This document shows, piece by piece, positions 38,995 to 60,953 of a stretch of DNA of 64,000 nucleotides. Source of the DNA: Thuidium tamariscinum. Lineage: Eukaryota; Streptophyta; Bryopsida; Hypnales; Thuidiaceae. The stretch covers positions 47,149,082 through 47,213,081 of the forward strand of contig OX344751.2 of the NCBI GenBank assembly GCA_947034885.2. Direction: 5' to 3'. Both the position numbers and the translations under genes were made by a program. The notes under the pieces were generated by a model. That model searched no databases. It was not told where the DNA came from and saw only the letters and a list, made by a program, of their open reading frames with translations. Numbering within the stretch: position 1 is the first letter of the stretch; each line of letters opens with the position of its first letter.

Positions 38995-39029
38995 ATTTAT
39001 GGAAAAATCTCCGGATGCATGGGGCTCCC

Positions 39030-39490
39030 GATGTACTAAAGTTATGATGTACTGTTCATCTGAAAATCCCCCAATGAACTTATGTAATGTCCATCTGGAA
39101 ATCCCCCGATGTACTAAAGTTATGATGTAGTGTTCATCTAGAAATCCCCCGATGTAGTAATGTAATGTTCATCTACAAACTCCCCTATGTACTAATGTAA
39201 TGTTCATATGGAAATCCCCCAATATAGTAATGTAATGTTCATCCACAAACTCCCCTATGTACTAATGTAATGTTCATCTAGAAATCCCCCTCTGTACTAA
39301 TGTAATATTCATCTGGAAAACCCCTGATGTAGTATGTATTAATGTTATGCTTATCTGGAAATCCCCCGATGTAGTAAAGTAATGTTCATCTGGAAATTCC
39401 CCTATACTAATGTAATGTTCATCTGGAAATCTCCTGATGTACTACTCTAATGATCAGCTGGAAAACCCCAATGTTAAGATGTCATAATGA
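39030..39490. repeat. Left-terminal array, ~36-bp units with palindrome half-sites
   Basis: About 12 degenerate units of the type 'aatgttcatctggaaatcccccgatgtact' fill the left end of the giant element. Each holds GGAAATCCCCCGATG, a decayed half of the 18-bp palindrome. From 39490 to 40000 the DNA is AT-rich without a gene. Confidence 0.8.
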
Positions 39491-40047
39491 ATACAAGAAC
39501 TTCATATCCACTTATTTCCTATACAGTTTTACATATCACTCACACATGGAAATTTTTAATGTAAGTATGGCTCATTTGGAACTCCCCTGATGAAGTGCTC
39601 ACATCCAAAAGCAAGCACTGAAATTCAAATGGACAACGGGTTCTCATATGCCATAGACAATGCAACTTCTGTTTATTTCACGCTATGTAAGCACTTATTG
39701 CTTGCATAGGATAAACAATTATTAACAATGCCTTATTCCATCTTTGAAGTGTTGTAGGGAATACATTACTTGACAATTTATAGGAAGCAGAAGCCTACAG
39801 TACATTATATTATAATAATAGAATCATATAAGTTCTGGCGGTTGCCATTAAGGAATAGATCAAACATCATATACTACTCTGAATTTCATCTAGAATTGTC
39901 ACAATCGGCAACTACCTACAATTAAAAAGATCAGATAGTCAGATGGGGCAATGTGCAATGAAAATGCATAATGGCAATTCAATGTCGCATACACAATGCC
40001 AACCGGAGATCTCCCGATGACTAGTATGAGTCTACCCTGGTTAGCAA

Positions 40048-43000
40048 TCAAGGATCCACCTCATTTGCCCTATTCAGATTTGCCAAGGCAGCCTCTCTAC
40101 TGTTCTTAGGAATAGTTTGAGATTTGGGGTCTACTACCTTGGACCAATTTGCATATACTACGCAATTTACATCAACCCAAGTGGGGACTGTATTTTCAAC
40201 AACCCATTTACCACTCCAGCAATTCCGGTACCTCAATTCCAATGTCCTTTCGGAATTATCCGGTCTCCAGTACTGGAGCAAGAACTTCCCGTTATTCATA
40301 TCTTCCGGCACTCTACATACGTCGGACAATGCTCTTCCTTGCCAAACAGCACAAACGGAGGGATCTTCAGGTCTAAGAAGAACCCATAAGCCTGGACGTA
40401 TGTCCACCCAAGGATTGAAACTTTCCTATGGAGCTTCATTTGCAGGGCCACAGTAAGGTTCCGGTTGATCTACCTCTGGAATCACATCCATGGGATTCAC
40501 GCTCGACCTTGGTTGAGATACATCATCCCGCAACACCCTCCAATCATGTTGTGGCCAGAAGCCTTCAACTAGAGCTGGAAGGCAATCCGGCAGCGGATTG
40601 TTTAGCTCACGTACAACTCGATTCCAGTAATCGACATATGGACCAAACGCGGTTGCAAATCCCTGACATTTTGACATTCCATTTTGCCAGTACTGAATGT
40701 ACTTTTGGAGCCCGACCAACATAAATCCTTTGTTCAGTGTAGCCTTCCGTGCAACTTCAAGAGCCTTCTCTCGATTTCCTGTCTCCTTAGGAACTTCGCT
40801 GCCCCACATAGGCTTGAATGGCACCGGCTTTGGACAACCCCAAGGGAGCATTGGACGACCATGCCGGTCTTTCTTCCACAAGCACTGAGAAGGTTTATCA
40901 GACGGTAGCCAGTGTGAATCCACTGCTGATTTTTTATACTTCATAACGGGGATTCCATCACCATCCACATAGAATTTAAAGAGATGCATCTCTCCCAATC
41001 CAATAATTCTAGCTGTTCCACTGCACAAGTAACCTTTCACAAAGGATTTAAAATCCGCCACCTCCTGTATGACCTCTGGCATGAATGACAATTCCTGAGA
41101 TTCCATGAAGGCTTTCATGAGGTCAGCAACGACAAACGTATTCTTACTCTTCAAAGCCTTAGACAAATGGCTAAAATATGCATCTATGTCCTCGTGAGTG
41201 TGTCCAACTAGAAGGAAACCCGCTTGAATTTCCTTGAATACCCCTCTTGCTGTAAGCAAAGACAAGAATGCCATGAGATATTGGTTCTTGTTATCCTTGG
41301 TAGAGTTATCAAGTTGAAGATATAATTTTTCTGGAAGGGGGATAGATCCACGCCAAGCTGCTGGATCTATCATTTTTAGGGTGTCCATACACCTAGATTT
41401 TCCTCTGAGGAGTGCCTCAAACATTGAATTCACCGGCGGATAAGGAAAGAGGTTGCCTGTCTCCTGAATTGGAGGACCCTCCAAACGGCGAAACAATCTG
41501 GCCAAGGATGAGATTGTAAAGTTCGAGTCCCCCAGCCAACATGATGGAGCGTAATGAGCATAAGCACCATCTCCATGACCATGAGCTACCATACCAGTTA
41601 CACTCAACGGAAGCTGACCTAAACCTTGAGTGGCCTTAGTTGTCATCCGCATCCTCGGAAGAGCCGTTTTAGATGTATCCATCTTATCATGAATAACGCA
41701 TAACATCTCCTGAGGGTTCCGTTTCGATTCTTCACGCCAAGACCCATACAAGCGATGATAAGATGTTTGATGATTAAGATGTTCAGTTCGCTGCTTCGTG
41801 AACTCCACAAACTCGGGGCTTCCTTTTGGTGATTTCAAAAGAAACGCCAGTAACTGATCACAAGTAGTACATTTCGCAAACGAACTGCCAACAGGTTTAA
41901 CCGCGACATTGTTGAAGTGCTCCCTTTTTAATCTACTAATGGTTGACTGGCTCACTTGATGAAGACCGTAATCCGCATTTAACTGCATTGGAATAAAAGC
42001 ACGCTTCAAAATCAAAAGCAACAACAGAAGCTACTAGATAAGAATGATTCTATTCCAAATCAAATTTATCGGGAGATCTCCCGATGTGACAATATATCCG
42101 GAGATCTCCGAATGACATAATCTATTCGAAAAGAAGCTAACTGACTCAGAGAAAAGGTTCAAGTCATTGAACTACCTCATTGGCGTCAGCTTGAACTCGC
42201 TTCCAATTATTTCTAGCAGGTAGAAATTTCAAAGTATCCATTCTTCCGTTTCCAATGCCCCGCATTTGGTGTGGCATTTGATCAGCAGTTTCATCAATGA
42301 TTGCTTTTATAGTTCCTGTCACCTGGATGGTTCGAATTCTCGGACGCTTAACCCCTTTGTTCCCGTGCGTTCCCGAGAGCACGCCATCATTGTAAGCATC
42401 TATGTAATTGTGGTAGGTCGACTTTGGAATTCCGTGAATAACGTACCACGCAGTACCACAAACTTCAACTCCCTCCAAAGTAACATACTTCCGCTTCCGA
42501 TTCCCGTCGGCACTATGCAGCTGTCCGCCCACAGCGATCCCGTATTCCCGACAGTCTTCAAATGACTTCAGGTAAAATTTCTTCCTCACTTTCAACGTAC
42601 TCTCGTGATGAAACATTTGGCAACATCGATTGGCGCAGCATTTTTGTGAACTGACCTTTCGAATTTCATCCTCTCCAGTTTTGCGAACATATTGTGAATC
42701 CGGTTGATCAAGCTTGGGTCGACAAACGATGAAGCGATAGGGCGACTTCTTGCGACCACCTAGATAAGCTAAGGGGTCCTGAACTTCCGGATGGGCCCGA
42801 AAGTGGTCAACAGTCTCCATCAACGATTGTCCATTTGGGAACCAAGAATGCAGTAAGGGCCATCGAGCATGACTCATTATGGTATCCTTGTTACCAACGA
42901 AAACGTCGAGTACAGTAACACCTACAAAGCCCTCGCCGAGTATTCCATCTCGGAAATGATCATCCGCCCTAAAGCAGTTTATTCAACCTGATGCTAGGAG

Positions 43001-43486
43001 CATGCCATTCGAGTCTTTACGATGCACTTCAAGACCCATCCAATCCTCTAGACGAATATATTGATCATCATCCATCAGGGGATCTCCCGATGGGCTCATT
43101 ACAGCATCAGCTCTCCATAACACTGTCCGACCAAGAACATCAGCTAAAGTTGAAAAACCCCTTTGGCAAGGGTCAACTCGCAGTTCTTGAGCTTCTAGAT
43201 TGATCGTCTGAGGCTGTAGTAGAACAAATACGCAGGGCTCCATGGGGATTTGAATTCCAAGCCACTCGCCTACAGGACGGGCATCCACGATTGATCCTTC
43301 CCCAACCTCACCGTATCCCGGAACAAGCAACTTCACTACATCACCGCTCTTGACTGGTGAAGATGTAGCACTGGACTCTTGAGAGTCCTTCTCCGTGAGG
43401 TTTTCACCTGAGTAAGAGAATGATGCATCGTCGAGGGATTCATAGGATAAGTCCATATTGAATGTCTCACTGTCGTTGTAAGCCAT
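40048..43486 (-). pseudogene. DUF7869-type transposase-like gene, two exons, two in-frame stops
   Basis: Minus strand. Exon 1 runs 43486-42176 and exon 2 42030-40048. The intron (42031-42175, GTAGTT...TAG) holds two palindromes. Exon 1 has an acidic N-terminus, a Cys-rich patch (KCCANRCCQMF) and a helix-turn-helix-like segment (IPKSTYHNYIDAY). Exon 2 has FAKCTTCDQL, then QLDNSTKDNKNQYLMAFL and VGHTHEDIDAYFS (about 41320 and 41195), the hallmark of DUF7869 proteins, with a D...HEDID arrangement suggesting an RNase-H-fold nuclease. In-frame TGA (42983-42985) and TAG (40426-40428) interrupt otherwise continuous protein-like sequence. It may be the element's transposase; domain recognition is good, catalysis is inferred. 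Confidence 0.65.
42031..42175 (-). other. Intron carrying two palindromes
   Basis: GT-AG intron in phase 0 on the minus strand. It holds ATCGGGAGATCTCCCGAT (42068-42085, perfect) and ATCCGGAGATCTCCGAAT (42096-42113). Splicing is predicted only. Confidence 0.55.
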
Positions 43487-43835
43487 AGCGGAAAGTTCCT
43501 GGAATAGCTACTGAATCTGAAAACATCGTCACGAAACAAAGGGTCAGAAAGGATGTGCCATGTATATTATCGCCATTGCCTCCATCTACACAATCATCAC
43601 ATTTTCAAATATCTAGCCAATGCAAACAACCAAATTGATTGCGTATACAATTAGCCAAACTGAATCCTACTTCTTTTCAATCTTTGAATACAATGGCTCA
43701 TTCCAAGCGTAGAACACAGTATGAATGCAGGTGCATTGTTAGATGAAGGGCACTCAAAATATTCAATGACTACTAGTACCCGGCTAAAAGAAAAAATATC
43801 TTGGGGATGCAACATAGTTTGCTTCAAAACAAATT

Positions 43836-44715
43836 ATCCGGAGATCTCCCGATGCAACCATTCAGACACATAATCGTGAAAGTATCGGAACAGTTCGTGA
43901 TACAAAAAAAGGACGAGCATTCAACACTTCAAGATAAGTTGGATGCAATCCGTGCAAGTGGATCGGACACAATCCTTCGGTGACCTCAAGATGCAGCCAT
44001 TCAGAGGTGTTACCACTACACCATTGGAAGATATCTCTACGCATTCCCTGCGAGAGTATCTGATGCAAGTATCTGGAGATCTCCGGATGGAAATGCTCTC
44101 AGAGTTAATGACTCATGTATCGGGAGATCTTCGAATGGAAATGCTCACAGAGTTTATGACCCGTCTATCGGGAGATCTCCGGATGGAAATGCTCACAGAG
44201 TTTATGACGCGTGTATCGGGAGATCTCCAGATGGAAATGCTCTCAGAATTTATGACTCGCGTATCGGGAGATCTCCGGATGGAAATGCTCACAGAGTTTA
44301 TGACCCGTGTATCGGGAGATCTCCGGATGGAAATGCTCACAGAGTTTATGACGCGTGTATCGGGAGATCTCCAGATGGAAATGCTCTCAGAATTTATGAC
44401 TCGCGTATCGGGAGATCTCCGGATGGAAATGCTCACAGAGTTTATGACCCGTGTATCGGGAGATCTCCGGATGGAAATGCTCACAGAGTTTATGACTCGT
44501 GTATCGGGAGATCTCCGGATGGAAATGCTCACAGAGTTTATGACCCGTGTATCGGGAGATCTCCGGATGGAAATGCTCACAGAGTTTATGACCCGTGTAT
44601 CGGGAGATCTCCGGATGGAAATGCTCACAGAGTTTATGACTCGTGTATCAGGAGATCTCCGGATGGAAATGCTCACAGTGTTTATGTTTTGAATATCAGG
44701 AGATCTCCGGATGGA
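43836..44715. repeat. 48-bp x 13 tandem array, one palindrome per unit
   Basis: A lone palindrome at 43836-43853 precedes the array. From 44069 to 44692 thirteen units of exactly 48 bases follow, then a partial fourteenth. Each begins 'tatcgggagatctccggatg' or a near variant, then 'gaaatgctcacagagtttatgac'. Units 3-5 and 6-8 share the same order of variants (a 144-base higher-order repeat). Because 48 is a multiple of three, long frames stay open on both strands (for example repeating SGDLRMEMLTEF); I regard these as by-products. The array lies in the wide region between the two divergent genes. Confidence 0.9.
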
Positions 44716-44719
44716 GCCA

Positions 44720-46410
44720 ATACGTTCACACGTATTGACGTATGATACTTCATCTCCGTATGCTGTACCTATATGCGTATTATTTTGACATGTTTCTATA
44801 TGGGAACGAGATACTCAATAATTGGTAATACGGGTTCCCATACTGTATGTACCAGTAAGCAAAAGGTAGTCAACCGACCGTAATAAGGACAACCATACTA
44901 CCATCTTCTACAATAACCTAAAAATGCATCGAATTCCTTGGTACTGTTCTCCAAATACATGCCGGTGATTGACTAGGAATTTGATATTTATCTATAGTTG
45001 TAATCTATGTGCCATGCACATGGCATACTGATTAAGCCACGAGAGGAATACATGCAAACTTGGAAACGAGAGGCAAGGAAGATGCTCATGGTGCGTAACA
45101 CTGCTCAGTAAACAGCTAGTGCTCATGCATTCATCAAGGGACACGAATGCACTATTCAACATAAGTCATGAGACAAACAACTACTGAAGCATTGCATTGC
45201 CGTCCTCATGTTCTACTTGTTCTTATTGTTCATTGATATGCCACATCTCCAACTGCATTCAGAGGAACTCAAGATTATGAACCCTCAAGCCATGAAAGTT
45301 GAAGAAATCATACCTTGTAATACTGAATTCACAAGAGAGCTTCGTGTGACCCCACGTCCAAGTGCTTGACACGCTGCACTGCACGAGCTCCAAACTCCTG
45401 AGCTTCAACGAGCATGTTCACAACTTCGCATGTGCAAAAGAGCCAGCTCTAGCGAGCTGGGGGCCATGACCCCAGTCCGTTCGGATTCGAGATCCGTGCT
45501 TCCCGCCACAAATTTCTATAAGAGATAGGAATCTTGCACGTTCACAATTTTTGACTGCCGTCCTCAAGTTTCCACTGCATTGACCAAAAAGAGGATCTCT
45601 CCGCATGTGGTCTCCTGATCCAAATGTTGACCGCATTCTTGGAGTTGGTGCAACACTACTATCGAGGAGCATCTCCAAATGTGCACCCTTGACGTTAATT
45701 GCTCACGGCATTCATGTTCACATTAATCTAACGCTAAGTCACAAAGTCACATAATAATGCTTGGGATTTTGTGATCTATTCTAACTGTTGACTTTAGTCT
45801 CGAAATTCGTGCAACTTGAAGACCTTGGAGAATTTGCACTTGGCCTTCCATTTGGAATCTTTGGTAGATTCATTAGATCTGCAGCATTGAAGTAGGGGTC
45901 AGTTGTGGCATTTTCTCTATCAAATAAAGGGCCACATTTAGCACTTCAATGTCTTTTAACTCCATCAATATTAACCGCTGGTTATGTTTTGTTTCATTAT
46001 CTTTTAATTAGGCTGATCTATATCATAAGTGGTAATTAAAGGAAAACACATTTCATTTTGAAGCAATATTTTCAACATGTAATAAGTTAATAACTACATG
46101 CAGTTCAGTGAATCTCTTTATCAACACTGCGGAATTTTCCATCTACATTTAATTGTAGAGAAAACAAATGCAAAAGATTCATGATGACATTCCAGTGATA
46201 ATGATTATGTAGGAAACAAAGACTTCTCGTGTTGAAAGTTCGTTTAGAAGGACAACGATGTATACCGTAGGATTTATAGCAATTAGAGTTCGGAAATTTG
46301 GCTTGCAGTCTTTGGAAAATTCAGCCAATTCAACAATTTTAATTACAGTTAATTGACCGCGCATTCCTTTACGGTCCTTCATTTCTAGGAGCACTCTAGG
46401 ATGCTTCAAG
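44720..46410. other. No gene seen
   Basis: Unique-looking intergenic DNA within the giant element. A hairpin at about 45448-45465 (CCAGCTC/GAGCTGG) is present, but no complete tRNA fold follows. Confidence 0.4.
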
Positions 46411-46414
46411 GCTT

Positions 46415-46745
46415 TAGGATATAGGGTCCACGGTTATAGGGTCCTAGGGTTTAGGGTTTACGGGTTAAGGATCCTAAGGTTTAGGGTCCACGGTTATAGG
46501 GTCCTAGGGTTTAGGGTTTACGGGTTAAGGATCCTAAGGTTTAGGGTCCACGGTTATAGGGTCCTAGGGTTTAGGGTTTACGGGTTAAGGATCCTAAGGT
46601 TTAGGGTCCACGGTTATAGGGTCTTAGGGTTTAGGGTCCACGGATTAAGGGTCCTAAGATTGAGGATCCACGGTTATAGGGTCCTAGGGTTTAGGGTTTA
46701 CGGGTTAAGGATCCTAAGGTTTAGGATCTACGGTTATAAGGCCTT
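46415..46745. repeat. 60-bp tandem repeat made of TTTAGGG-like words
   Basis: Exactly 60-base units ('ccacggttatagggtcctagggtttaggg' then 'tttacgggttaaggatcctaagg') repeat about five times, then decay to about 46880. TTTAGGG, the plant telomere unit, occurs once or twice per repeat with variants TATAGGG and CTAGGG. This is an interstitial telomere-like satellite inside the giant element. Confidence 0.85.
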
Positions 46746-47757
46746 TGGCTTTTGGGTATAGGATATTAGGGTTTAGGATCATGGTCTTAGATTATAGGAT
46801 CCATAGTCTTAAGGATCATGGTCTTAGATTATAGGATCCATAGTCTTAAGGTTCAGGGTTCAGGGTTCAAGGCTTACAGTCTAGTATTTCAGATTATTCA
46901 CTCTAAGGATTAGGGTTGACAATTAAATGGACATAGGCATACAATTTCATGCTCTAGGATCTATGCTCTCATATTCATAGTGTTGATGTTCTAGAAATAA
47001 TATACTAGCTTCAATTTTAAATGTAAAATTTATAAAGTAGGGTTCTGGAATGGTTTAGAGTAACTATGAACTTCAATGAATTAGAAATTTTGTATTTCGG
47101 GGGTTTCGAGATTTCGATATTTGAAACTAGGGTGCCTATTTAATATACATTGAGTATGAGGGTTTGGATTGTGTACTAGATATTATTGTCTAACTTGAGA
47201 GTTAAGGTGTTTTGGTTTTAGACTCTAGAGTGTTCTTAGGGTTCAATTTTTTTATAAATTTATGGCATGAAGGATTTAGGATTTGAACAATATCATTATT
47301 TAATTTGTGTTTAATGTTATGAGCTCAGTTTTTTGGTATTTTGAAATGTCTTTGGATTTTGTACCGTCTCGCTCTTAGTTTCATTTGATAAGAATGAAAA
47401 TGATATTAATTATATTAAATGGAGTAAGTATACTTCCTATAATTATTTACAAAATATATTTTAGCATTTTTGGAAAAATAAATGATTGCAAAGTAGTTTC
47501 AATGAATCTTAGTTGAATAGTTAAATGTAATTTGGTGAAAATCATTAGACTACATATTATTCATCTCATTCATCTAGAGTATTGGGAAATATTAACCCTT
47601 TTGATTGAATTAATTTTCTACATTCTCTTAAGTGATTATTAAAAACAAATGTTCACATGTTTATATAATTATTTACAAAATATAGATAAGTATTCTTATC
47701 CTAAATGCAAGCCTTACATCATAAATTATAAGCTTGTTACGTTGAAAAATTATAGAG

Positions 47758-48590
47758 AAGTTGGAATGCCATTAGACATTGATATTCTATGACAAGTTTC
47801 AACTTCAAAGTCAAAATTGTCTATTTCATTTATGATTCACAAAAAAGGGCACCCTGCCATTGTTTGCGCAAATTGCCAAATCTCACATACAACTCTAAAC
47901 CAACGCAATTTAGCGACAAAAAAAATGGGGACAAGTTGGAATGCCATTAGACCTTCATATTCTATGACAAGTTTCAATTTCAAAGTCAAAATTGTCTATT
48001 TCTTTTATGATTTAAAAAAAAAGGGCACCCCTGCCATTATTTGCACAAATTGCCAAATCTCACATATAACTCTAAACCAACATGATTTAGCGACAAAAAA
48101 AATGGGGACAAGTTGGAATGCCATTAGACGTTCATATTCTATGACAAGTTTCAACTTCAAAGTCCAAATTGTCTATTTCATTTGTGGTTCACAAAAAAGG
48201 GGCACCCCTGCCATTGTTTGCATAAATTGCCAAATCTCACATACAACTCTAAACCAATACGATTTAGCAACAAAAAAAATGGGGACAAGTTGGAATGCCA
48301 TTAGACGTTCATATTCTATGACAAATTTCAACTTCAAAGTCCAAATTGTCTATTTCTTTTATGATTCCAAAAAAAGGGCACCCTGCCATTGTTTGCGCAA
48401 ATTGCCAAATCTCACATACAACTCTAAACCAATACGATTTAGAGACAAAAATAATTTTAAGAAGTTGTATTGCCATAGAATGTTCATGTCCTTTGAGGAA
48501 TTTCAACTTCCAAGTTCTAAATGTGAAATAATGTTTTGTTTGATTCCCCAAGAAATAGTACTTAGAGCTTTTTTCCATTAATTCCAAAAT
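47758..48590. repeat. ~177-bp tandem repeat x ~4.5
   Basis: The phrase 'aagttggaatgccattag' starts at 47758, 47933, 48110 and 48287, a spacing of 175-177 bases. A diverged unit follows near 48461 and weaker traces run to about 48950. Long frames (for example 47817-48581) arise from the repeat. The unit size resembles centromeric satellites, but four copies do not make a centromere. From 46880 to 47757 the DNA is AT-rich with no gene. Confidence 0.85.
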
Positions 48591-48959
48591 GCCACAACAA
48601 ATTGGAAATTAATAGAATTTATAGACAAAAGGAATTTCTAGAAGTGACAATGTCATTATAGGACATGTATGTTGTATGATGCATTTCAAGTTCAAAGTTG
48701 AATTCGTCAATTATTTAATTGATTCTAAAAAGAAGGATACCTGGCTATTTTTGCAAGAATTTCCAAATGCCACCGTCACGCAATTGGAACTTAATGTACA
48801 AAAGGGAATTTTTTTTGTGCAAGTTGAAATGGCATTGGACACTCATGTCCTATGACAAATTCCAACTTGTCACTTGAAATTACCTTTTTTTTATGTGATT
48901 CCCTCCCAAACGGTACCCTGCTATTATTTGCACCGATTGCCAAATGCTTCACAAATTTA

Positions 48960-50230
48960 AAAATAATTAAGGTTATGAAGAGACAATATTATTTTGTTGA
49001 TGTTGCAATGTCGATATGTCCTAGTAAGGATATTTATGTTTCATGACAAATTTCAAGCTCTAAATTGAGTTGGTCAATTTTTTATTTGAATGTACTAACA
49101 CTTCTTAGAAGACTAATTCATTATTTATTTTGATTCAAAAAATCGATGCATACGGGACTATTTTTTCTTTCTTCGATGAATAAAAATTGTTTGCTAGTGT
49201 CCTAGAATTGATTGTATTTCTATTTAAAATATATAGAATCATTCTACATTGCGGATTTAGAATAACAATACCTTTTTTTTTCCTTTTCTAGTAGAAATGT
49301 ATCCATTTTAGTATCACACCATTTAATGTAATCTTAAATAATATTAACAAATTTAATTTGATTTTGTAATGATTATTTGAATGAGTTGATTTATGACATC
49401 AACATTTTAGGCCCACTCTAGTGACTCTATGTAAAGTCCAAAAAATTGAATGCAATGATGTGATTAGACACATCGGGGCAAACCCTTGTTTCATTTGATT
49501 TCATAAATATTTCTACCTAATTATTTTCAAATATCTATAATTGTAGTATCATTGTTGATTTAAAGAGTTAGCTTGTTTAATTATTTTCCAAAGTTAGGAC
49601 AATGAACCCAAAATAATTGTACTATTTCAAAGTGAATTTATATTCTCCGACATTGAAAAATTAAAGTATAATTATCTCTCTTGACTTCAATAAAATATTC
49701 TATTTAATTTTAAATTTTAGAAGGAAGATGAAATCGTTAATTTCCAACCAAGGAGTATAGGTCTGACTAAATTTGACATGGCTAACAAATATTTATTAGT
49801 TTAAAATATAGTTGGTTTTATAAAATAATCGATTGGTTCACTAGAGTTTGGTTTGTTGACTATGTGGCACTTTCTGCAAACATTGGAAAGAGAAATATTT
49901 CATAATAAGTTTTGAATACATCATATAATTTTTTTCATCTTAATTTTTTTTCACTTTCCACGTACCTTTATTTTTTTATCCACACTTTGTCTTAATGTTA
50001 CATATTGTTTGGGTTCCACTTAAGACGCATCATTCAAGAAGCATTTAGATAAATGTGAACATTCTTTATTAGAAGACAAATCCCTTTGGATTTAATTTTC
50101 AAGAAACCCCTATCTAGAGATTACTCAGTCATTGATGTATTTTTGTGGCATTTTAATTAAAACAACAACCTATTGCCCTATAAGTAACATCATGCATGTA
50201 GGCTTATCATGCATGTGGGCTGCTCAGACT
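48960..50230. other. No gene seen
   Basis: AT-rich intergenic DNA between the 177-bp repeats and the GC-rich block. I recognise nothing in it. Confidence 0.4.
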
Positions 50231-50249
50231 TCTAATCCTACTTGATGGC

Positions 50250-50800
50250 AATCAATGGCTGTAATGAACCAGCCATCAAGTCATGACCGGCAGTGGGCGG
50301 CGCAAGGGAAATCACCCCGCGCTGGTCACTCCCCGTTGCCCCCAGACTCCCGTTAGGTTCTCCCTCTTCTCTCTTCACGCCGGCTACATTTTTCTGAGCC
50401 GAAGCTTTGTATCCGCTCCCCGTCCTTGAATGTGCGCCTTGTGCGAAATCCGTAGTTGTAGGAGTCTCTAGAATTATCACGTACCTTGTTTGCAATACAT
50501 TGGAATCACGTATTTGCAATACGCCTGTTGGGGCCGGCGGTGTCAGAGGGCACGCTCGCGCGGTACTGGAGGGCGCTTCCGTCGTGCAACGGTGCTTGCG
50601 CGGTGTCGGAGGTTCGCGGAGGTACGCGGAGCTGCAGAAGAACTCGGCAGGTCGCTGATCGGACGCTGCGAGGGAGTGGATCGGAGAAGAGCTCGGGAGG
50701 TCGGGAGGCTGATCGGAGTCTGCGAGGGCGTCGTTGATCGGAGGCTGCAAGGGCGTCGCTTCTCGGAGCCCATGCGCCTTAGCTAGGGCGCTTGTGCAAA
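50250..50800 (+). promoter_or_regulatory. GC-rich island upstream of the fusion gene
   Basis: A sharp GC- and CpG-rich block (with 'cgcggaggt' and 'gatcggaggctgc' repeated words) about 0.8-1.3 kb before the first coding exon at 51560. Frames are open on both strands as expected from composition. Position and composition suggest a promoter or 5' UTR for the plus-strand gene; no TATA was identified. Confidence 0.35.
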
Positions 50801-51612
50801 AAACCAACTTCAGGTATTACTTTCTGCGCCACGTTTGACTGAGTGTTTTCGTGTGCAACTTTTGTGTTTGAGTTGAGGTGCAGGATTCATTGAAGTCTCC
50901 ATGCACTTTGTCTGTGTATTGCAGTTTGTGATCAGTGTGGTTCACGGAATCACAATGCGTGGTTTTCACTGAGGGTCTTGTTACTGCTGTACATGTTCAT
51001 TTGAAACCTTGTTCCAATTATTGATTGAAGCATGTCTGATCGCATTTTTTTTTGCTTAGCCTTACTAGCAAGAGTGTAAGAATTGTGTACTACACAATTC
51101 AGTCTTAGTTAGCTTCATTTCTACATTACATTCTCTGGAATGGTCACATTGTCAGGGTTTTCAATGATTGAGCTTCATACAAAATAAACTTCAATCTCTG
51201 AATGTTCAGCGTAGGGATTTGGTAGGGGCAGAACTTACTTGTTCAGTTGGTACTCTCGACATTGCTGCCAGTGATGTGGGTTTAAGGGTTCACTTGGAGT
51301 ACTTCTGGTGACTTTAAATGTGGCTTGGATCCGATGACGTACTGTAACTATTATACTGTTCATGTTTTCTTTCTGTTGAAGTAAAATACGTTTGTAACAT
51401 GTTCATGCCCTCATAGTGACTACTTGTCAACGCTAGTTGATTCAATGGATCATTGATTTCTGAGTTTCCTTTAGCATAATTATTGCTTGTGCATAGGAGT
51501 TCAATTTACATTTCAACCACTTGTTGGCCTGTTGCTGGGGCATCCTTCAAATTTACACGATGGAAGGAGAGTCTTCACAGCCTGCGGCAGAACTCCCTAT
51601 GTGGGACAATCC

Positions 51613-52778
51613 GTAAGTGCCCAGCAACTCAAACCTATCTAGTATGTTTAGTTACTTAGTCTGTAGTATTCGGGCATAATTGGAAGTATCAAGAATCCCT
51701 ACAGACTCTTGTATTCGGATGGCATAGCATGATTGAGGACACAGATTTTCGTATGCATACTGTAATAGCACATAGTATCCTAAGTCCTAGTAAGAGCTGA
51801 AGTACTAAAGCATTCTGAGTAGACCTCTTATAACCGTGCATCCGGAGAAATCAATATAAGGCCCTATTACCGCGGAAGCAAATCTCTCAATGTGTAAACG
51901 ATTCTAGAAGAAACACCTATTACCGCGGATCGGGAGCCCCCCCAATGGTCCTCAGTCAATAGAATTGAGGGCACAAATCATCTGGAGATCTCCCGATACG
52001 TAGGCTAAAGAGTTTTGTTTATAGAATAAATGAAGGATAAAAGACAATGCTATCGGGAGATCCCCCGATAGTAGAAACCTACATTAAGTTAGTGGTTACC
52101 CTATAACATCGTGCCTGATAGAAGATAAAATTCCTAGAATAGTGCTTTGTCCATCCAGAGATCTCCCAATGTTGTCTAATCCAAAAGTCTCATATCTTCG
52201 ATGATATATAAAAATCATAGGTCTGAGCTCAATACTAGGTTCTGAACTCAAATGAAGAGCATAGAAGTTCAGAACGGGCCATTGTGACATCCCGTGGTGG
52301 GAAGACATGAAAATGCACTACGTGTTAACTACTATCCAGAGATCCTCGGGCACAAGTTCATACATGCTCCTCTATGAATGCTATCGGGAGATCTCTCGAT
52401 GGTTTCTTTAGGCATTAAAATGGTCTTGGAGTCCCTATAGAACACCATTTACAAAGTGAGGTCGCAGTTCCAACGGGAGATCTCCCGATAGATTTCTTAT
52501 CTGGAATGCGCGAATGGTGCCGCAACCCAGAATATGGATGAGGGTATATGGCTTGAGGAATATCGGGAGATCTCCCGATGGCATGCACTAGTATAGACAT
52601 CCGGCATTCTAATTGTCTTTATACTTGTGAACGTCTGTGTAAAGGGGATCACTCACATGTAGTGTTGTTCACTAATCCGGGAAGCCTTCAAGTACAGTGG
52701 TGATATCGGGAGATCTCCCGATGACTATGGTCGGTAGTCTCTTCAATATCTAACAATTTTCCTGTCGCCTGATTGTAG
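51613..52778 (+). other. Intron 1 of the fusion gene with seven palindromes
   Basis: GTAAGT donor and TTGTAG acceptor join codons without a shift. Palindrome or variants at 51980, 52052, 52153 (weak), 52383, 52472, 52562 (perfect) and 52705 (perfect). Confidence 0.6.
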
Positions 52779-54105
52779 GGACGTTCTGTATTCTGAAATA
52801 CCACCAGACATGAGCTCTAAAAGGCTTGCAGCCTTTATTGACGGATGGGTTCCTCCTTATAAATACAAAGGGGACCATCACCCGGTGGGTGTTTTCAGGT
52901 GCCGCAACAAAGTTACTATATGGGGCCTTGAGTGGAAGGTGGATCAGGATAAGCGTGTGACCATTGTCCCTACACTAATGTACATGGACAAGAAGTCAGC
53001 ATCATCCGGGCTAGACGTGTTGGAGATTCAGGGTCTGAATAATTCCACAGCTCTTGTGGTAGTTCAAGAGAGACTGGCCAAGTCCAAGGGCGACATAACA
53101 TTCGGGTTAATTTTGGACTATAGCATGATGAGGAAAGAGTTGTGTGTAACCATTTCACAGCACGGGTACTTGTATTCGGCATCTGGCTTATTTGAGTGGA
53201 CTCCTGAAGAAATGAAGACCCAGTGGGACATCATGGACCAGGACCGCAAAGAGGCAAACATGCCAAACAATACCCTCGCAATAGCAGCTCCAGCAGCATC
53301 ACCGGCGAAGAAGGGAACAAAACGGAAAGCATTGGTTGGAGCACCAGGGGACGATACTGCAGATGATAGTAATACAAAGGCCAAAATATTGAAGACTATC
53401 ACAATTGAACGATGTGTGGGCTTCACGGATGCTGAAGTAAAAAAGCTGACCAAAGGGCAGATGACAGCAATGCAACAGCTTTACAAGAGGGTGTTTGGGG
53501 TGATGTATAAGTGGGGGAAGAGACCCCTACTGGATGCAAGTGGTAAACCAATTCGTGTGTACTACAAGTATTTGCATAAGGCCCCACCAGGAAAGATTGT
53601 TTACAGAGGTATTGAGAGTGCTAGGTTGGAGGGGATCTTAAACCAAGTGCGAATTGAGGCGGACTACGACTCGGAATTGAAGCACATTACCGTCCTTCCC
53701 CTCAAGCTTGGTCCGTATGGTGGAGATGGTGCTAATACAAGGGTTTCTTTCTGGAATTCTGCTCCGAATAAACGAGATCTAACAAGCACAACGAATTATT
53801 ACATTATTGGTGGACAACACACAGTCGAAGCGCACAAGAAACTCTTGGAGTTAGGAGAGATCCCAGAGTGTGATAGAGCGCAGGCATCCACCTTTGAGAT
53901 AATTCCAATTGGGGCACTAGTAAGTGCTACCACTCATGGCAGTGACGATCTTGTGTTCCTATCCCGGTCACTGAACCAAAACATAGCTGGTCAATAGAGG
54001 GAGCAATGTTTCACGCAGCAGCTTCTGAACGCTCGAGTCAAATGGAGGGATATGAATAGTCCACAACCAGCTTTGAATGGGAGAGTTCACTCGGCTGAGT
54101 ACGCG

Positions 54106-54565
54106 GTAAGTAATACCCCATCCCTCTAATGGAATGGATTTTCACTTGTACATTAGTTGTGGGGGGCTCTTAGCATCGGGAGATCTCCCGATAGTTGCTG
54201 CTGCTTGGAATAGATTTTCACTTGTACATTAGTTGTGGGGGGCTCTTAGCATCGGGAGATCTCTCGATAGTTGCTACTGCTTGGAATAGATTTTCACTTG
54301 TACATTAGTTGTGGGGGGCTCTTAGCATCGGGAGATCTCCCGATAGTTGCTGCTGCTTGGAAAGGATTTTCACTTGCACATTAGTTGTGGGGGGCTCTTA
54401 GCATCGGGAGATCTCCCGATAGTTGCTGCTGCTTGGAATAGATTTTCACTTGCACATTAGTTGTGGGGGGCTCTTACCATCGGGAGATCTCCCGATAGTG
54501 GCTGATGCTTGGAAAGGATTTCCTCTTGTACATTGGGCTCTTAGCATCGGGAGATCTCCCGATAG
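54106..54565 (+). repeat. Intron 2: 76-bp tandem repeats, one palindrome each
   Basis: Six palindromes at 54175, 54251, 54327, 54403, 54479 and 54546, spaced 76 bases except the last (67). Five are perfect 18-mers. The donor is GTAAGT. The only acceptor that keeps the reading phase is the AG directly after the last palindrome (54564-54565), so the element's motif would form part of the 3' splice site. Confidence 0.8.
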
Positions 54566-54951
54566 TTGTTGCTGTGTGGAAGAAGTTTTGTCCGTGACAT
54601 TCTAATTGATTCTGACGTGGGCCTTGTACAGAAGTTCCATCCTGTAATGAGCACAATCTTTACAGGAGTGAAGCACAATGACGCGGCAGACTTGCGTATT
54701 CCGCTTCTTTTCCTTGAAAACGATGACGATGTCACGAGGTGGATAAAGATTGAGGAGAACTACATCAATCAACGCCTTCCTGATAGTGCTAGAGATTACG
54801 GAGGTCCGAAAACCAAGCGGAAGCCGCTTTTTCAAAATGACTTCAGGCCTCTATACGGCCTTCGTCCAGAGGATGTGAACTACTTGGCGACCCTGGTGGA
54901 GAGCGAGGAGGTATCGATGAAGAGCTCTAAGGCAAAATCGTTAGAGACTTT

Positions 54952-55679
54952 GGGTGATTGCAAGAAACACTTGTCCTATTTTTTGTCCCCTTGACCTCCA
55001 ACAGGTAGTTTTTTGCTTATAACTTTTGCATAGTTTGACCTATCAACTTGAAATTTGGAATGAAGGTGAGCACAAAAGTTTTATATGTTGTATAATTTTT
55101 TCAATTTAAAAAAAATTAGTTTACTATTTTTAAACTGCCCCCGATTGGCTGTCTACCTTGGCCATTTTGGGGGTTTTTAGTCCTATTTTTTACCCAAAAA
55201 TGCAAATTTTGAGCTGAAAATTGGCATGCTTAGATATATAGTATAGTTACACAATCCCTAAAAAGGATTTTTGAAAATATTAAACTGTCCAACTTCCACA
55301 TGTCGTCAAAGTGGCTGACTTTGCGCACGTGTAGAGAATAGAATTTATTTTTTCCAAATATGAAATTTGTTGGAAAAGAAAGACCTTTACTTGAAGAAAA
55401 AAAGGATTTTTCATTTCCTTTTTTTGAATTTTTTTACTATTTTTACCAAATTAGTGAAAAAAGAGCTATTTTCATTGTATTTTCCATTGTCTATAACATT
55501 TAGAGAAATTTTTTCTTAGGTCTGAATTTCAAGAGACATAATATTCTCATTGCTCTTCAAATTATCCATATTTTTTTCAATTTAAAAAAAATTTATTTCA
55601 AAGGGTCATAGGACTCACAGGACTCATTGATTTTGAGCCATTTTGAGCCAAAACCGGTAAGTGTTTCTTGCAACGACCC
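54952..55679. mobile_element. ~730-bp inverted-terminal-repeat element, copy 3, inside exon 3
   Basis: Begins GGGTGATTGCAAGAAACACTT and ends with the reverse complement of GGGTCGTTGCAAGAAACACTT. It is flanked by CTTT on both sides (54948-54951 and 55680-55683). Skipping the element and one CTTT restores a continuous frame between the two parts of exon 3, so this is a real insertion into coding sequence. At 728 bases it matches copies 1 and 2 in length and termini; interior identity to them is lower. Confidence 0.9.
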
Positions 55680-56713
55680 CTTTGCAGAAGCTCCCTACCC
55701 TCGTTCAAGTAGCGGCTATGGAGAAGCAGGTTAGACTTATGAAGAACGAGCTCATGTGCCAGTATAAATCGCATCCGCTTCCAAGCAAGAGGCCTGAGTA
55801 CATCCCATACACTGCAGATCAGTGGGATACATTTGCGGAGGAGAAGAAAATCAGCCGCCGTGATCTGGAGCTGTGGGTTCATAAAATGAATGACTATGAG
55901 GAAGGGCAGGAATGGTTTAAGGGTCGGGGGCAAGCTCTGAACAAGACATGGGACCCCGAGGACTGTCCCCGCTTTTTGAGAAACCTGTGGGAGGCACATA
56001 TGAGTACCGATGAGGGAATTGAAGTCAGCCCGGTTTTAACATCCACATTTGAAGATACTTACATGTGCATGTCCATGGATGAGAGCAACTGGAACATTAG
56101 TGGCGTCCTCGCTAACCCTGTCGTGAAGAATTGGCGTGGAGAAAAGAAAAGGCATCTCTACATTTGGTTTCTTTTTGAAGCAACAGCAACTGGATCAGGG
56201 GCAAAGAAATTGGAGGACCATAAGCTAAGGAGACTTTTCGAAGCACTAGAGATCAGTGATGCGAGTCAGAATACACTGTTAGCTAGGTCTCCAGTTGTTC
56301 TCTTTACAGATGCCGAAGGCTTCCATGAGATACTTGTTCATCTGGACGCCCGTTGGCGAGAGAAGAAGAAGGTATGGGATTATCATGTAATCCACTATTT
56401 CCCCAAGCGAGGTGACAACTTTCCGAGGCCTGCTACTGGGACAAGATTCAATGTCTTCGTAGTTTATCTTTTGGGGTACAATGAGGGCCAAAGTCGGAGG
56501 GATTGTTTCTCATGCTTCTTCCCTGGAACCAATCCTCCTATGAAGCCATTTTACGTCTCGGACGACATGGAGGATGTTTACATGTATTGGAAGCGCCCTC
56601 GTCTACCATGGTTGAAGATTACGACTCCTCTTGCGCTTCTCCGTCATCACATACATGACAATATGGTGATTGTAAATGTCAATGGTGGGCCAGAGATTAC
56701 ATTTCTAGGACTG

Positions 56714-56829
56714 GTATGATATTAATTTTCAACCCAGGACTGATCTATCGGGAGATCTCCGGATGCTTATTTCCTCAGAAGGTTTGTAATCATTAGTATT
56801 CTAACTGTGCCTTTTTTATGTCAATTCAG
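56714..56829 (+). other. Intron 3 of the fusion gene with one palindrome
   Basis: GTATGA donor, pyrimidine-rich tail and TTCAG acceptor, phase 0. Holds ATCGGGAGATCTCCGGAT at 56747-56764. Confidence 0.6.
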
Positions 56830-57081
56830 ATTGCTTGTGCGAAGGTGCTGGAGGTAGTTCAATCAGAGGATACCGATGGAATACGAGTCGTAGGGAAACA
56901 AATTTGGGATGAAGTCCAGAAGAATCTCGCCGAAGATGCTCCACCTGAACGTGATGTGCCTCAAGGCTCTATTGATCCAATAGACATTGACGATGCAGAT
57001 TCGCACGAGACAACGGAACCTTCAAATCCGGAGTACTCTGAACATAGCGAAGAGACTGGTAGACCATTACAGATATTGAAG

Positions 57082-57192
57082 GTTTCTCTTCATTTTCTCT
57101 TACTCATCTATCGGGAGATATCCGGATGCTAGCTTTTCTTTTCTCATATTTCCTGATGTGTCTAATTGTTTATGTTCATACACACATGGCAG
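57082..57192 (+). other. Intron 4 of the fusion gene with one palindrome
   Basis: GTTTCT donor and GGCAG acceptor, phase 0. Holds ATCGGGAGATATCCGGAT at 57110-57127. The next intron (58139-58246) has no palindrome. Confidence 0.55.
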
Positions 57193-58839
57193 GAGAAGTC
57201 TCCAGAGCCGCCGCTTCGTCCAAAGAAGTTGAAGAATCCAAAACGACCCAACCCAGATACAGCCCCCAAGAAGGCAAAGCGACTCACAAAGAAGAGAAGT
57301 GTGAAGTCGTTGATAAGTGGCTCAACGTCTGGAGGGGATGGTGTGCTATCTAATACTATAGGTGAGCAATCTACGGCCCTTAGAGCGGAGAACCCTGGAG
57401 TCGCGGACGCTGCGACAATCTTGGTTTCATGTTCCAGAGGAGGAACTCCTTCATTGCCTTCTGCTAGCCAAGCTCTTGAAGATAACCAGTCAGAGAAGGG
57501 AGATCCCTCTGTTGAAGCCGCCGGACAGATAGAACATGAATCCTTGAATAGACGGAGAAATGATGTACATGTTGGCTGCAGTGGCGTTGCATCGGGAGAT
57601 CTCCCGATGAACGATGTAGAAGTGGTCCTCACTAGCGATCTATCGGGAGATCTCCGGATGGCAGAGGACACAGAACTCAACTCCGCTCCCACGATGGCTG
57701 AGGAGATTCGGAATGATGCAATGACCGATTTGCCCCCCCTGAGTCCGGAAGTGGCCGTAACTGTAGTGGTAGAAGAGGATGTCACAATCGCCAACCCTGG
57801 AGTCCCGGTGGTGTTCTCAAATAATCTACCCGTGAAGCTCGGGAAGGGGGTAACCACGGTTGTCATGGAAAAAGAGGAGGTGTGTAAATTAAAGGACGGG
57901 TTCCAAGACGTGTGTCTTCTTCCAAGTATGAGTTTAGATTCTCGCGGCAGCGATAGGAGATCTCGGTACATTGAAGCTTGTCGACTTACAGTTCGTTCTA
58001 CTTACCAAACAATGTATGACATTGTCCGTGTACAGGACGCTGTATCTGCACATGAGGCTGAAGGTTCGGATGCTGCACGTTTGCGTCAGGTAGGCGGCGT
58101 TGGTCAAGGAATGGTGGCCCAAGAGGTTACCGATACAGGTGCTTCAGTTGGCATGAATGTTTTTAATGGGATGGGTTTTCTCTCTCTGTGTAGCTAGCAG
58201 TTCTTTAGGGTGTCACTAACTATATCATGATTCTTTTTTTTGGCAGATGTGAGAGGGGATGGGGCGACGAAAGGTACGCCGTCTGTAGAGGTATCCCCCC
58301 GACGGTATACAGTGATCCTGGACATGAACGGAGTTCTCGTACATAGGTTTTTTTACAAGAAAAAACACCACATAAAAAGAAGACCCGGTGTCACAGTTTT
58401 CCTTGAATGGTTGTATGCCAGGGCAAATGTAGCCTTTTGGAGCAGTGTTACAAACCGTACCATGACGGGTTTGTTAAGAACCGTGCTAGCAGATACTTCT
58501 TTTGGGGAGGGTGACGTCCATGTCCTCTCACAGCTTGATTGTGCGGAATCCTCGTATAGGACCAAAGAGCAGCCTGAGAAACCGACCTTTTTGAAAGAAC
58601 TGAACATCTACACGAAGAGTGCTGGTTTGTCATCTGCAGAGAACGTACTTCTGATTGATGACAGTCCCATGAAAAACCTTCTTAATGATTCTAATAACGC
58701 CATCTTTCCAGAGACTTGGAAAGGTGATTCAAAGGACAATTTCTTGACTGGGCATCTACTTCCGTGGCTTGACCGTTTATTCAAATCAAACGAAGCTGTG
58801 GTTCATTTTGTGAGGAACAATCCATTGGATGGCTGTTAG

Positions 58840-59642
58840 AGTCCTTTAGATGCGGTTTCGAGGGAGGGACATGAGATTCTGAAGGCAGTGGTTGGACTGT
58901 AGTTTCTTCAAAGGGTGGCTTCATCCGGAGATCTCCGGATACCTAGTTCTGCTTATTCATGTGATGTACTGGTGCACAGTTGTAGATGTATAGTACTTTC
59001 TGCGGCCTTAGTTTAGTGGAATTTTGGAACCTGGTGGAACTTGTATATAGACAGGTGTTTGACATTCCATTGTATCTGTATTTTTAACTTGTATGTAATT
59101 AAAATGAAAATTTACACGAGTATTACTGTACTCTTGATTTGAAGTGGGACATCCAAGTCTTTTTCTTCCTCTGTTATGATTCATCTGGAGATCTCCCGCT
59201 ATTAGTTGCTTGCGTTTGCATTTTTTATACCACGAGAGGAATACGGTTAGAACATTATTGATTACGTTGAAGTTTTATTGGTAATCAGTGATGCCTTTGT
59301 AGACATACACTAATTTATATGACTTTAATGGTTCATAGGCAATTGCAGATAGTGAATAGTATCTGCATTTTCCCCGACCCTACAACCGCTCTCCTAGGTC
59401 CCTTGGTACGATTTAATGTCCTAGAAATGAATTCCAAGTTCACTATCTTGAACAGGAACCTATGCATCACATGTGTCTTGGTATGACTTCCTCCATGTAC
59501 ATCTTATATACTCCATCGCCTTGTACACTTCTTAGTCGCGATTGTCTTAAGCTCATATGTCACCCATGTTTATCGGGAGTTCTCCGGATGACTGTAGGTC
59601 TTAGGGTGCATGTAGAATTGACTAGTGAATGTGTCTTGGCAG
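58840..59642. other. 3' flank of fusion gene; palindromes, no gene seen
   Basis: Holds variant palindromes at 58923-58940 (ATCCGGAGATCTCCGGAT, itself a perfect palindrome), 59183-59200 and 59572-59589. The last lies in the putative intron before the next exon. No other coding region. Confidence 0.5.
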
Positions 59643-60122
59643 AAGGCGCTGCTCGTTGTATTGACTGGTGCGTTGTGCGTTGAAGGTGGTGTTGCGGATC
59701 TCCCTCAGGATATCAACATATTGGATGGTTTTAACGAATTTTTTCAATATCTTGTTGAAAAAACTCACTGTGGCTTGTGGTCATGCATGCGTGCTTCAAC
59801 TTTGTCGGAACTTATTCGACGTATTTTACGACAAAATATTATAGGCCGATTCCTTTTCATATCCAGTGCCGAAACTCCTGACAAGAACGACCCCTATCCG
59901 AATCGTGTAGCAATGGTGGAGTATGTTTTAGGTAGTCCTCCATTGCGTAGGGTTCTTTGGAATCAAACTATTGCATTGCTTGAGGTAGACCCTCTGAACT
60001 GGCAACGTCCACGCGTTATAGGACCGTGGATACATGTAGGAGATGATGTAGATCTTGTCAAATTGCAATGTCCCTACTATATCGGACCAGAATTAAATAT
60101 AAGGGGAGTAAAATACCATTAA
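59643..60122 (+). CDS. FCP1-like HAD exon lacking the catalytic Asp
   Basis: An acceptor-like TTGGCAG ends at 59642. The following frame runs 159 codons to TAA. It starts ALLVVLTGALC, which lines up with the 'LLVVLDLNGVL' start of FCP1/SCP domains but has Thr where the nucleophilic Asp belongs. CGLWSCMRASTLSELIRRIL then matches the second FCP1 segment (VAFWSSVTNRTMTGLLRTVL in the upstream paralogue), and the tail has VLWNQ and HVGDD-like strands. It is probably the last exon of a second, catalytically dead FCP1-like unit. The upstream exon was not found. The alignment is by eye. Confidence 0.4.
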   Translation, partial: KALLVVLTGALCVEGGVADLPQDINILDGFNEFFQYLVEKTHCGLWSCMRASTLSELIRRILRQNIIGRFLFISSAETPDKNDPYPNRVAMVEYVLGSPPLRRVLWNQTIALLEVDPLNWQRPRVIGPWIHVGDDVDLVKLQCPYYIGPELNIRGVKYH

Positions 60123-60489
60123 GTGCATTAGTTTGGTTATTATATAGGCACCTGTTTGTGATTTATAGTATGAAAAGTAATAAAATATGTTGAGTCTTTG
60201 TTCTCCTTCGAACTGTAAGTAATTCTGGTGTACCAAGTGTTTGGATTCCGCTTAGCCTTGTCATTCACTACATTTTCTTGTATTGTCATGGGAATTGCAT
60301 CCGGAGATCTCTCGACCTCTATTTTCAAATGCCAATCCACTGAACCTTGAAGTAAAGCTACTTATGTGAGTTGAAGTAATTCCTAGTTTATTGCCTTGGT
60401 GCAATCCAATTGGGACAAGAGAATTGTTTAGATTTATATGAGTTGCAATTAGATTTAGTCTTCGGTTTCTCACAACACTAGGACCCTCC

Positions 60490-60860
60490 ATTATGTGCTG
60501 TTCCCTTACATCGGAAAATCTCCCGATGATTTACCTCAAGTATTACATATAACCTGATGAAGTTCGGTGTACTTCCCTAATTACTTGAACTCCAAGAACC
60601 TCCATACTGTGATATTCCCTTAGATCGGGAAATCTCCCGATGATTTACCTCAAGTATTACATATAACCTGATGAAGTTCGGTGTACTTCCCTAATTACTT
60701 GAACTCTAAGAACCTCGATATTGTGATATTCCCTTAGATGGGGAAATCTCTCGATGATTCATCTCAAGTATTACATATAACTTAGTGAAATTGGAGGTAC
60801 TCCAACTCCCCAAATCCCCTAAACCCGACTTCTACTGAAAATATATAAAATCCTAAAACC
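60490..60860. repeat. Right-terminal array, ~123-bp units with palindrome half-sites
   Basis: Units containing 'gggaaatctcccgatgatttacctcaagtattacatataacctgatgaag' begin near 60509, 60632 and 60755, with further half sites to 60890. AAATCTCCCGATG is a decayed half of the 18-bp palindrome, mirroring the left-terminal array. It lies directly before the right border of the giant element. Confidence 0.8.
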
Positions 60861-60915
60861 CTACTTATATTGAAAATCTCCCGATAGTACCATGACAAAG
60901 TCCAAATTTAACACC

Positions 60916-60953
60916 AAAGTCCAAAAGTAGTTAAATATGGCATCCCGATCTAA
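60916..60953 (+). CDS. gag: gag C-terminal codons, resumed after the insertion
   Basis: Starting with the right copy of the 14-base duplication, the gag frame continues for a few codons (SPKVVKYGIPI) to TAA at 60951-60953. The left copy reads SPKVIYG before leaving the family sequence. This supports excision of 38995-60929 as the ancestral state. Confidence 0.6.

Follow-up and report, generated by a model that had tools for sequence, protein, structure and literature searches.

A family-specific palindromic dyad scattered through a giant DUF7869 transposon of the moss Thuidium tamariscinum as a candidate self-recognition site

The stretch of DNA analyzed in this work (64,000 nucleotides of contig OX344751.2 of Thuidium tamariscinum, positions 47,149,082 to 47,213,081 of the forward strand; hereafter the window) harbors a giant DNA transposon in which an 18-bp palindrome, ATCGGGAGATCTCCCGAT, occurs many times over. 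The window copy is 21,993 bp long (38951..60943) and is delimited by terminal inverted repeats (TIRs) of 26 bp, the left one (ATGCCATATTTAACTACTTTTGGACT) at 38951..38976 on the forward strand and the right one at 60918..60943 on the reverse strand, and by a 4-bp target duplication, CCCG, read from the flanks (38947..38950 and 60944..60947). The perfect inverted repeats cover 38950-38976 and 60918-60944, and the comparison of copy flanks revealed that the repeat proper starts with ATGCC. These ends, defined by the inverted repeats and the target duplication, enlarge the limits of 39995-60320 that an earlier note on this DNA had assigned to the element. The search for the 18-mer with up to three mismatches revealed 46 sites in the window, nine of them perfect, vs. 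none in 100 dinucleotide shuffles; all 46 fall within 39093-60755, that is, inside the transposon, and the rest of the window is devoid of them. The nine perfect copies lie exactly where the earlier note had placed them, the dozens of near copies that it described are indeed beyond chance, and its statement that none was noticed outside the element holds for the whole window.

The genes of the transposon are found on both strands. On the reverse strand, a frame at 40426..42024 contains the DUF7869 domain (Pfam E 4e-43) with a predicted RNase H-like DDE/D fold; on the basis of the model and of its structure matches, this protein is likely a DDE/D transposase, whose best named relative belongs to the moss Ceratodon purpureus (53%). 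The frame N1 (42164..42979, reverse strand) probably encodes the N-terminal portion of the transposase, since its relatives precede DUF7869 in two sister families of the transposon (families B and C, described below). The open frame at 42983..43504 of the same strand has no family identity and contains the site at 43074. On the forward strand, the first exon of a ParB-like accessory protein (395 aa) occupies 52810..53994; it is closed by an in-frame TAG at 53995-53997, where the protein relatives read through. The frame at 54566..54991, with a weak relative in family B, probably represents another exon of the accessory gene, and a 352-aa frame at 55661..56716 is probably its C-terminal part (its family B relative is 22.7% identical along 291 aa, E 2e-11). 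Downstream, on the same strand, a frame without family identity (57166..58194) contains the sites at 57591 and 57642, and it is followed by an NIF-type (NLI interacting factor-like) phosphatase (58234..58836; Pfam PF03031, E 1e-15) and by an open frame, also without family identity, at 59625..60119.

The ParB-like identity of the accessory protein is weak. With its model, which is of low confidence, Foldseek retrieved nothing down to the threshold of E 0.001; a sequence search of the PDB with the ParB-like and 352-aa frames returned nothing up to E 10, and the one carried out with the A1 profile gave nothing beyond weak similarities to histone H2B (best E 0.2). PADLOC gave no match for either frame, and no viral contigs encoding the ParB-like protein were found. 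Although to the eye the 352-aa frame resembles a degenerate N4/N6 methyltransferase, Pfam, NCBIfam, and PHROGs gave no match for it better than E 0.1. No match to the VANC-type domains DUF1985 and DUF287 was found up to E 1 among the ten frames scanned, and the Pfam matches of a frame lying in the 48-bp array described below look like repeat artefacts and were discarded.

The palindromic sites (all reported on the forward strand) are distributed over most of the transposon, singly, in clusters, and in tandem arrays. A pair lies between frames at 42068..42113, a 48-bp array of 13.5 units with one site per unit at 44069..44715, and a cluster of seven sites 5' of the ParB-like gene at 51980..52722; six sites form a 76-bp array (54130..54581) within a presumed intron, identified by eye, of the ParB-like gene. 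Two single sites (56747..56764 and 57110..57127) also lie in presumed introns, and four more (58923, 59183, 59572, and 60299) are found in the right spacer, over 58923..60316. Variant sites occur in two subterminal arrays, the left one with a 35-bp unit (39047..39474; GGAAATC) and the right one with a 114-bp unit (60485..60781). Both the 48-bp and the 76-bp arrays reported in the earlier note are thus real, and so are its terminal half sites, which recur in the two further copies inspected at their termini: like the window copy, that of C2 has them close to either end, and that of C1 has them at the right one (C-numbers are contigs). With exon limits as estimated here (7,772 of 21,994 bp), the coding sequence holds 3 of the 46 sites, the other 43 being non-coding. 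The middle of the transposon is site-free and AT-rich and contains tandem repeats of 60 bp (46422-46741) and 177 bp (47758-48515), the latter with relatives at corresponding places of the C1 and C2 copies.

The form of the site was analyzed on a set of 247 sites (up to three mismatches) of family A, that of the window copy; the set includes related copies and arrays, whose members are hence not independent. The base preceding the palindrome is a pyrimidine (Y) in 243/247 sites and the following one is a purine (R) in 243/247, even though neither was used in finding the sites. The length of the palindrome described previously has therefore to be corrected from 18 bp to a dyad of 20 bp, with consensus YATCNGGAGATCTCCNGATR. 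Positions 4 and 15 of the palindrome are free, and the other changes are mainly C>T and G>A; no dependence between positions 4 and 15 was detected (a G-C pair is present in 118/247 sites, about 123 being expected from the column counts). The bare 18-mer, with different flanking bases, also occurs in an expression vector widely used for mammalian cells, so that database searches carried out with it will hit vectors. Vector contamination was considered and excluded on the basis of the flanking Y/R (243/247) and of the location of the sites within transposon sequence.

The number of sites changes by local and repeated tandem growth, as judged from the comparison of the intron site across 15 loci. 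This site is single in nine of them and was not found in three, while it is embedded in 76-bp units in the window (six sites, with one step of 67) and in the C7 copy (three sites), and in 59-bp units in the C11:1.65-Mb copy (four sites).

The positions of the sites are shared between divergent copies, and the motif is conserved there. In the alignment of the ParB-like region (14 stretches; three copies of the window clade vs. ten others), the motif is 93.5% identical between the two clades and the 30-bp flanks are 58.1% identical, considering only the sites present in both. In a control without this filter (3 vs. 8 copies, 700 background 18-mer windows), seven of eight site positions are among the best conserved 18-mers, five of them at a level reached by none of the 700 windows and two at a level reached by four. 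Likewise, whole-copy alignments of the window copy with those of C1 and C2 gave a conservation of 0.89-0.94 for the non-coding sites vs. a background of 0.69-0.79.

The genome analyzed (one genome, 363 Mb in 19 contigs) contains the core of the dyad, ATCNGGAGATCTCCNGAT, at 255 places vs. one for the pattern read backwards. All the 117 places listed fall between the ends of this transposon, in intervals representing 0.15% of the genome. Large copies account for 103 of them, an interval on C5 for 11, and short copies for three. These last (C1:4546723, C2:2865683, and C2:43308487) had looked solitary, but each belongs to a short copy bounded by ends of the type described above. The earlier note had proposed such a genome-wide count, which thus assigns every located place to the element.

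The TIR pattern itself has 120 matches in the genome (up to two mismatches), and none was obtained with the reversed control. The flanks of 13 large and 11 short copies were read, and an exact 4-bp target duplication is present in 11/13 and 10/11 of them, respectively, the exceptions being the large C2 copy, a C11 copy (three of four bases), and the short copy L068. The length of these short copies is about 239-245 bp in nine cases, 173 bp in one, and 154 bp in one. The TIR-to-TIR span of the large copies ranges, among the matches listed, from about 19 to 86 kb, and the long intervals presumably contain nested insertions, one of which (17 kb) is seen in the C2 copy; the C5 interval measures 131 kb, its left end departing from the pattern by one mismatch. 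The outer flanks of the two large copies at C9:22760035-22784144 and C9:22807092-22831201 are mirror images of each other, so that these copies are not independent and represent either an inverted duplication or an assembly mirror. Matches to the ParB-like protein were obtained at about 21 places, eight of them on contig C11 (17.5 of 363 Mb). As for the window copy, by eye it is inserted in a long terminal repeat (LTR) retrotransposon, a frame of which would continue across the empty site; the gag-like (36790-39039) and protease-like (60935-61417) frames of this retrotransposon were likewise recognized by eye.

A further line of evidence comes from the sister families. The DUF7869 search of the genome scored 81 of 697 candidates and gave at least 84 matches, some of which are pieces of one copy: at least 22 show 79-100% identity, at least 38 show 44-61% (family B), and at least 24 show 40-42% (family C). 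Many family B matches have open frames, and most family C matches have frames of at least 900 aa; one family C member (C3:47240060) lies about 27 kb beyond the window. Family B was inspected at C10:8637000-8646999 (L075) and C6:7874200-7884199 (L076), and family C at C10:13612600-13632599 (L078/L080) and C9:19753700-19773699 (L079/L081). Each family possesses a dyad of its own. That of family B, TRTCGGCTGSCAGCCGAYA, has 24 sites (up to two mismatches) in 16 kb of C10, and its exact core occurs at 130 places in the genome vs. none for the reversed control. Among the first 50 of these places listed (on C1-C3), 42 have a family B transposase within 15 kb and 49 have one within 60 kb, and none has a transposase of families A or C within 60 kb, the random mean within 15 kb being 0.15; conversely, 12 of the 14 family B transposase places on C1-C3, among the matches listed, have an exact B site within 15 kb. 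The dyad of family C, TATCNTCGASTCGANGATA, has 18 and 17 sites (up to two mismatches) in the two 20-kb loci, and in each of them six sites are placed directly upstream of the transposase gene.

The three dyads hardly mix in the loci counted. Counting all of them with up to three mismatches, the A element contains 48 A, no B, and one C site; the B loci contain no A sites, 28 (C10) and 15 (C6) B sites, and one C site each; and the C loci, counted over 10 kb each, contain no A, no B, and six and seven C sites. The next 10 kb upstream of these C stretches, part of the 20-kb loci mentioned above, was counted for the C dyad alone. Different words built on one frame suggest that each family recognizes its own DNA.

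The genes of the three families did not diverge at the same pace. Between A and B, the identity is 51% in DUF7869 and 42% in the N-terminal part of the transposase; in the ParB-like gene it is 37% for the 81 best-matching residues and 23% along a stretch of 109 N-terminal ones, and the family B relative of the 352-aa frame is a collinear downstream frame of 465 aa. Between A and C, DUF7869 is 39-40% identical and the N-terminal part 31%. One of the two C loci contains a relative of the NIF phosphatase (28%, E 7e-14); none was found in the other or in the two B loci searched. On these comparisons, the accessory gene has diverged faster than the transposase, which is what one would expect if the accessory protein reads the dyad; this is no proof, as other causes exist.

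On the whole, these data may be explained by assuming that the palindrome is a family-specific self-recognition site. According to this idea, a homodimer that the element encodes, with the ParB-like accessory protein as the likeliest candidate, would bind the dyads scattered upstream of genes and in the spacers and presumed introns of its own family, and the bound protein would keep the giant element expressed, either by opposing silencing by the host or by marking the DNA, as VANC does on VANDAL elements; the sister families would have altered the dyad center while their accessory gene diverged faster than the transposase. What the sequences themselves show is that the sites cluster, are conserved where copies share them, have the form of a dyad, differ between families, and have repeatedly grown into arrays, along with the gene content; the binding of a protein, its identity, and its effect are inferred. 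The parts of this interpretation do not deserve the same confidence. That the dyads are recognition sites of some dimer encoded by the element is quite probable. That the ParB-like protein is the binder is a proposition evenly poised, and anti-silencing or marking as the purpose falls slightly short of that. To the whole, that is, family-specific self-recognition by an element-encoded dimer acting against silencing or for marking, we would give an even chance.

Some findings weigh against it. Positions are known for 117 of the 255 core places, which leaves 138 remaining. The observed/expected ratio of CpG is 0.51 within 60 bp of the sites vs. 0.64 farther away, and this lack of local CpG sparing speaks mildly against the sites being kept unmethylated. 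The eighth upstream site is missing from the clade of the window copy, and some window sites, mostly array units, are without a counterpart in the alignments (seven in C2-left, six in C1-right, and four in C2-right). The coding sites, which are few, gave mixed results (0.94 vs. 0.91, 0.89 vs. 0.81, and 0.54 vs. 0.84). Lastly, the gene present in all three families is the transposase, the ParB-like profile having given in family C a match of E 4e-4 at one locus and none at the other.

This last point leads to the possibility that it is the transposase itself (N1 plus DUF7869) that recognizes the dyads, for transposition or for the autoregulation of its own gene. Besides the occurrence of the transposase gene in all three families, this would account for the six sites just 5' of it in both family C loci, for the variant and half sites near both element ends, and for the presence of a site (up to three mismatches) in 10/11 short copies. 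However, sites are found as far as about 10 kb from either end, well inside spacers and presumed introns, and the TIR and the dyad are not alike. Moreover, nine short non-autonomous copies, which depend on these ends for their mobilization, show no special conservation of the palindrome: its value (0.898) does not exceed that of the interior (0.938), lies below those of the TIRs (0.981 and 0.937), and is equalled or surpassed by 122 of 135 interior 18-mers. The constraint therefore seems tied to the gene-bearing copies and not to the mobility of the short ones. We consider this explanation unlikely, though far from negligible. A somewhat similar one, that the dyads are operators or enhancers through which a host transcription factor or an element-encoded activator drives the promoters of the element with no contest over silencing, fits the strong conservation of the sites, the seven of them 5' of the ParB-like gene, and the clusters 5' of the family C transposase. 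Nevertheless, many sites lie away from presumed promoters, the word is absent outside element copies among the 117 places listed, and the use of different centers by the three families is not expected if one host factor reads the dyads; this alternative appears to be rather improbable.

Two other ideas are less probable still. The perfect inverted repeats, several of them in presumed introns, could be thought to act as RNA or DNA hairpins; but positions 4 and 15 vary independently, with no compensatory changes, so that pairing is not what is kept, and sites are found in spacers too, which makes a role as hairpins very improbable. The earlier note had suggested, along with a binding mark, a very small palindromic insertion sequence multiplying within the element, an idea that the high number of sites might favor, together with site 57591, which is missing from the C1 copy as a short indel and is the one possible case of presence/absence of a bare unit. 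Yet the sites occupy positions common to copies with diverged flanks, in which the motif is kept, their number changes by tandem units of 48, 59, and 76 bp, and the located places (117 listed of 255) are confined to this family. Judging from the aligned copies, the palindromes are thus not a mobile mini-insertion, a reading that we regard as hardly tenable; of the two proposals of the earlier note, which is thus supported in part, the binding mark is the one retained.

The self-recognition interpretation can be compared with some known systems. Bacterial ParB/parS and Noc use palindromic sites of 14-16 bp, present in many copies over the marked DNA, and proteins with a sulfiredoxin-like domain. 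The dyads share with them the palindromic form and the many copies spread over the DNA; unlike bacterial ParB, the protein described here belongs to a eukaryotic transposon, and a helix-turn-helix or CTP-binding motif is not established in it. TnpA, the protein encoded by Spm/En, has many sites in its own element, which are subterminal; the dyads are also numerous in their own element, but they run through introns and spacers. VANDALs, in turn, are Mutator-like elements. In VANDAL21 of Arabidopsis, the motifs of VANC21 are described in introns and other non-coding parts and in tandem arrays, with a hypomethylation that is element-wide, and related VANDAL families have different motifs (PMC5735166, PMC10398659). 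Our findings agree with this description in the family-specific motif placed in introns, spacers, and upstream regions, in the tandem arrays that grow and shrink, in the different motifs of related families, and in an accessory protein more variable than the transposase (PMC5735166, PMC10398659). The differences concern the motif, non-palindromic and of 9 bp in VANDAL and a 20-bp dyad here, and the proteins, VANC having DUF1985/DUF287, whereas the present element has a 4-bp duplication, a DUF7869 transposase, and a ParB-like protein. TnpA of Spm/En has likewise been linked to demethylation (PMC10398659).

In gene content, the closest element, likened here by its description, is Sola1-1_Ec32 of Ectocarpus, a giant Sola element of 21.5 kb. 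Its ParB-like plus methyltransferase gene and its transposase are on opposite strands, as are the ParB-like gene and the transposase of the moss element; the authors propose that such ParB-like proteins bind and modify their own transposon (PMC12477816). In the parts of that paper considered here no binding motif is named, and the string 'palindrom' is absent from its main text; if the proposal holds, by analogy dyads like these could be its sites. The Sola superfamily, as described, has a 4-bp target duplication, a DDD-type transposase, and members longer than 15 kb, and it is present in a moss (PMC10741241). Judged by such features and not by sequence, the transposon of T. tamariscinum is Sola-like in its 4-bp duplication, its DDD/DDE RNase H-fold transposase, and a TIR length within the range stated there. 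Among open-licence PubMed Central papers, we found no account of these motifs in the literature on such transposons and no paper on DUF7869.

A more extended and tentative view, which we put forward as doubtful, is that of a self/non-self system in which the ParB-like, perhaps methyltransferase-derived, dimer of each family would read a private dyad of 19-20 bp and set a chromatin or DNA-modification state. Families would split when the center and its reader change together within a constant outer frame, (Y)(R)TCN...NGA(Y)(R); this would amount to a lock-and-key code in evolution, of which one genome would contain at least three versions.

VANDAL/VANC is a clear known case of a transposon with sequence-specific self-recognition, and the same layout is found here in an unrelated giant transposon with long palindromes. 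For DUF7869, so far only a domain of unknown function by name, the predicted fold points to a likely role as a DDE/D transposase. The three sister families, with three dyads in one genome, make the joint change of a DNA-binding protein and of its scattered sites directly testable, and their accessory proteins are candidates for sequence-specific chromatin control.

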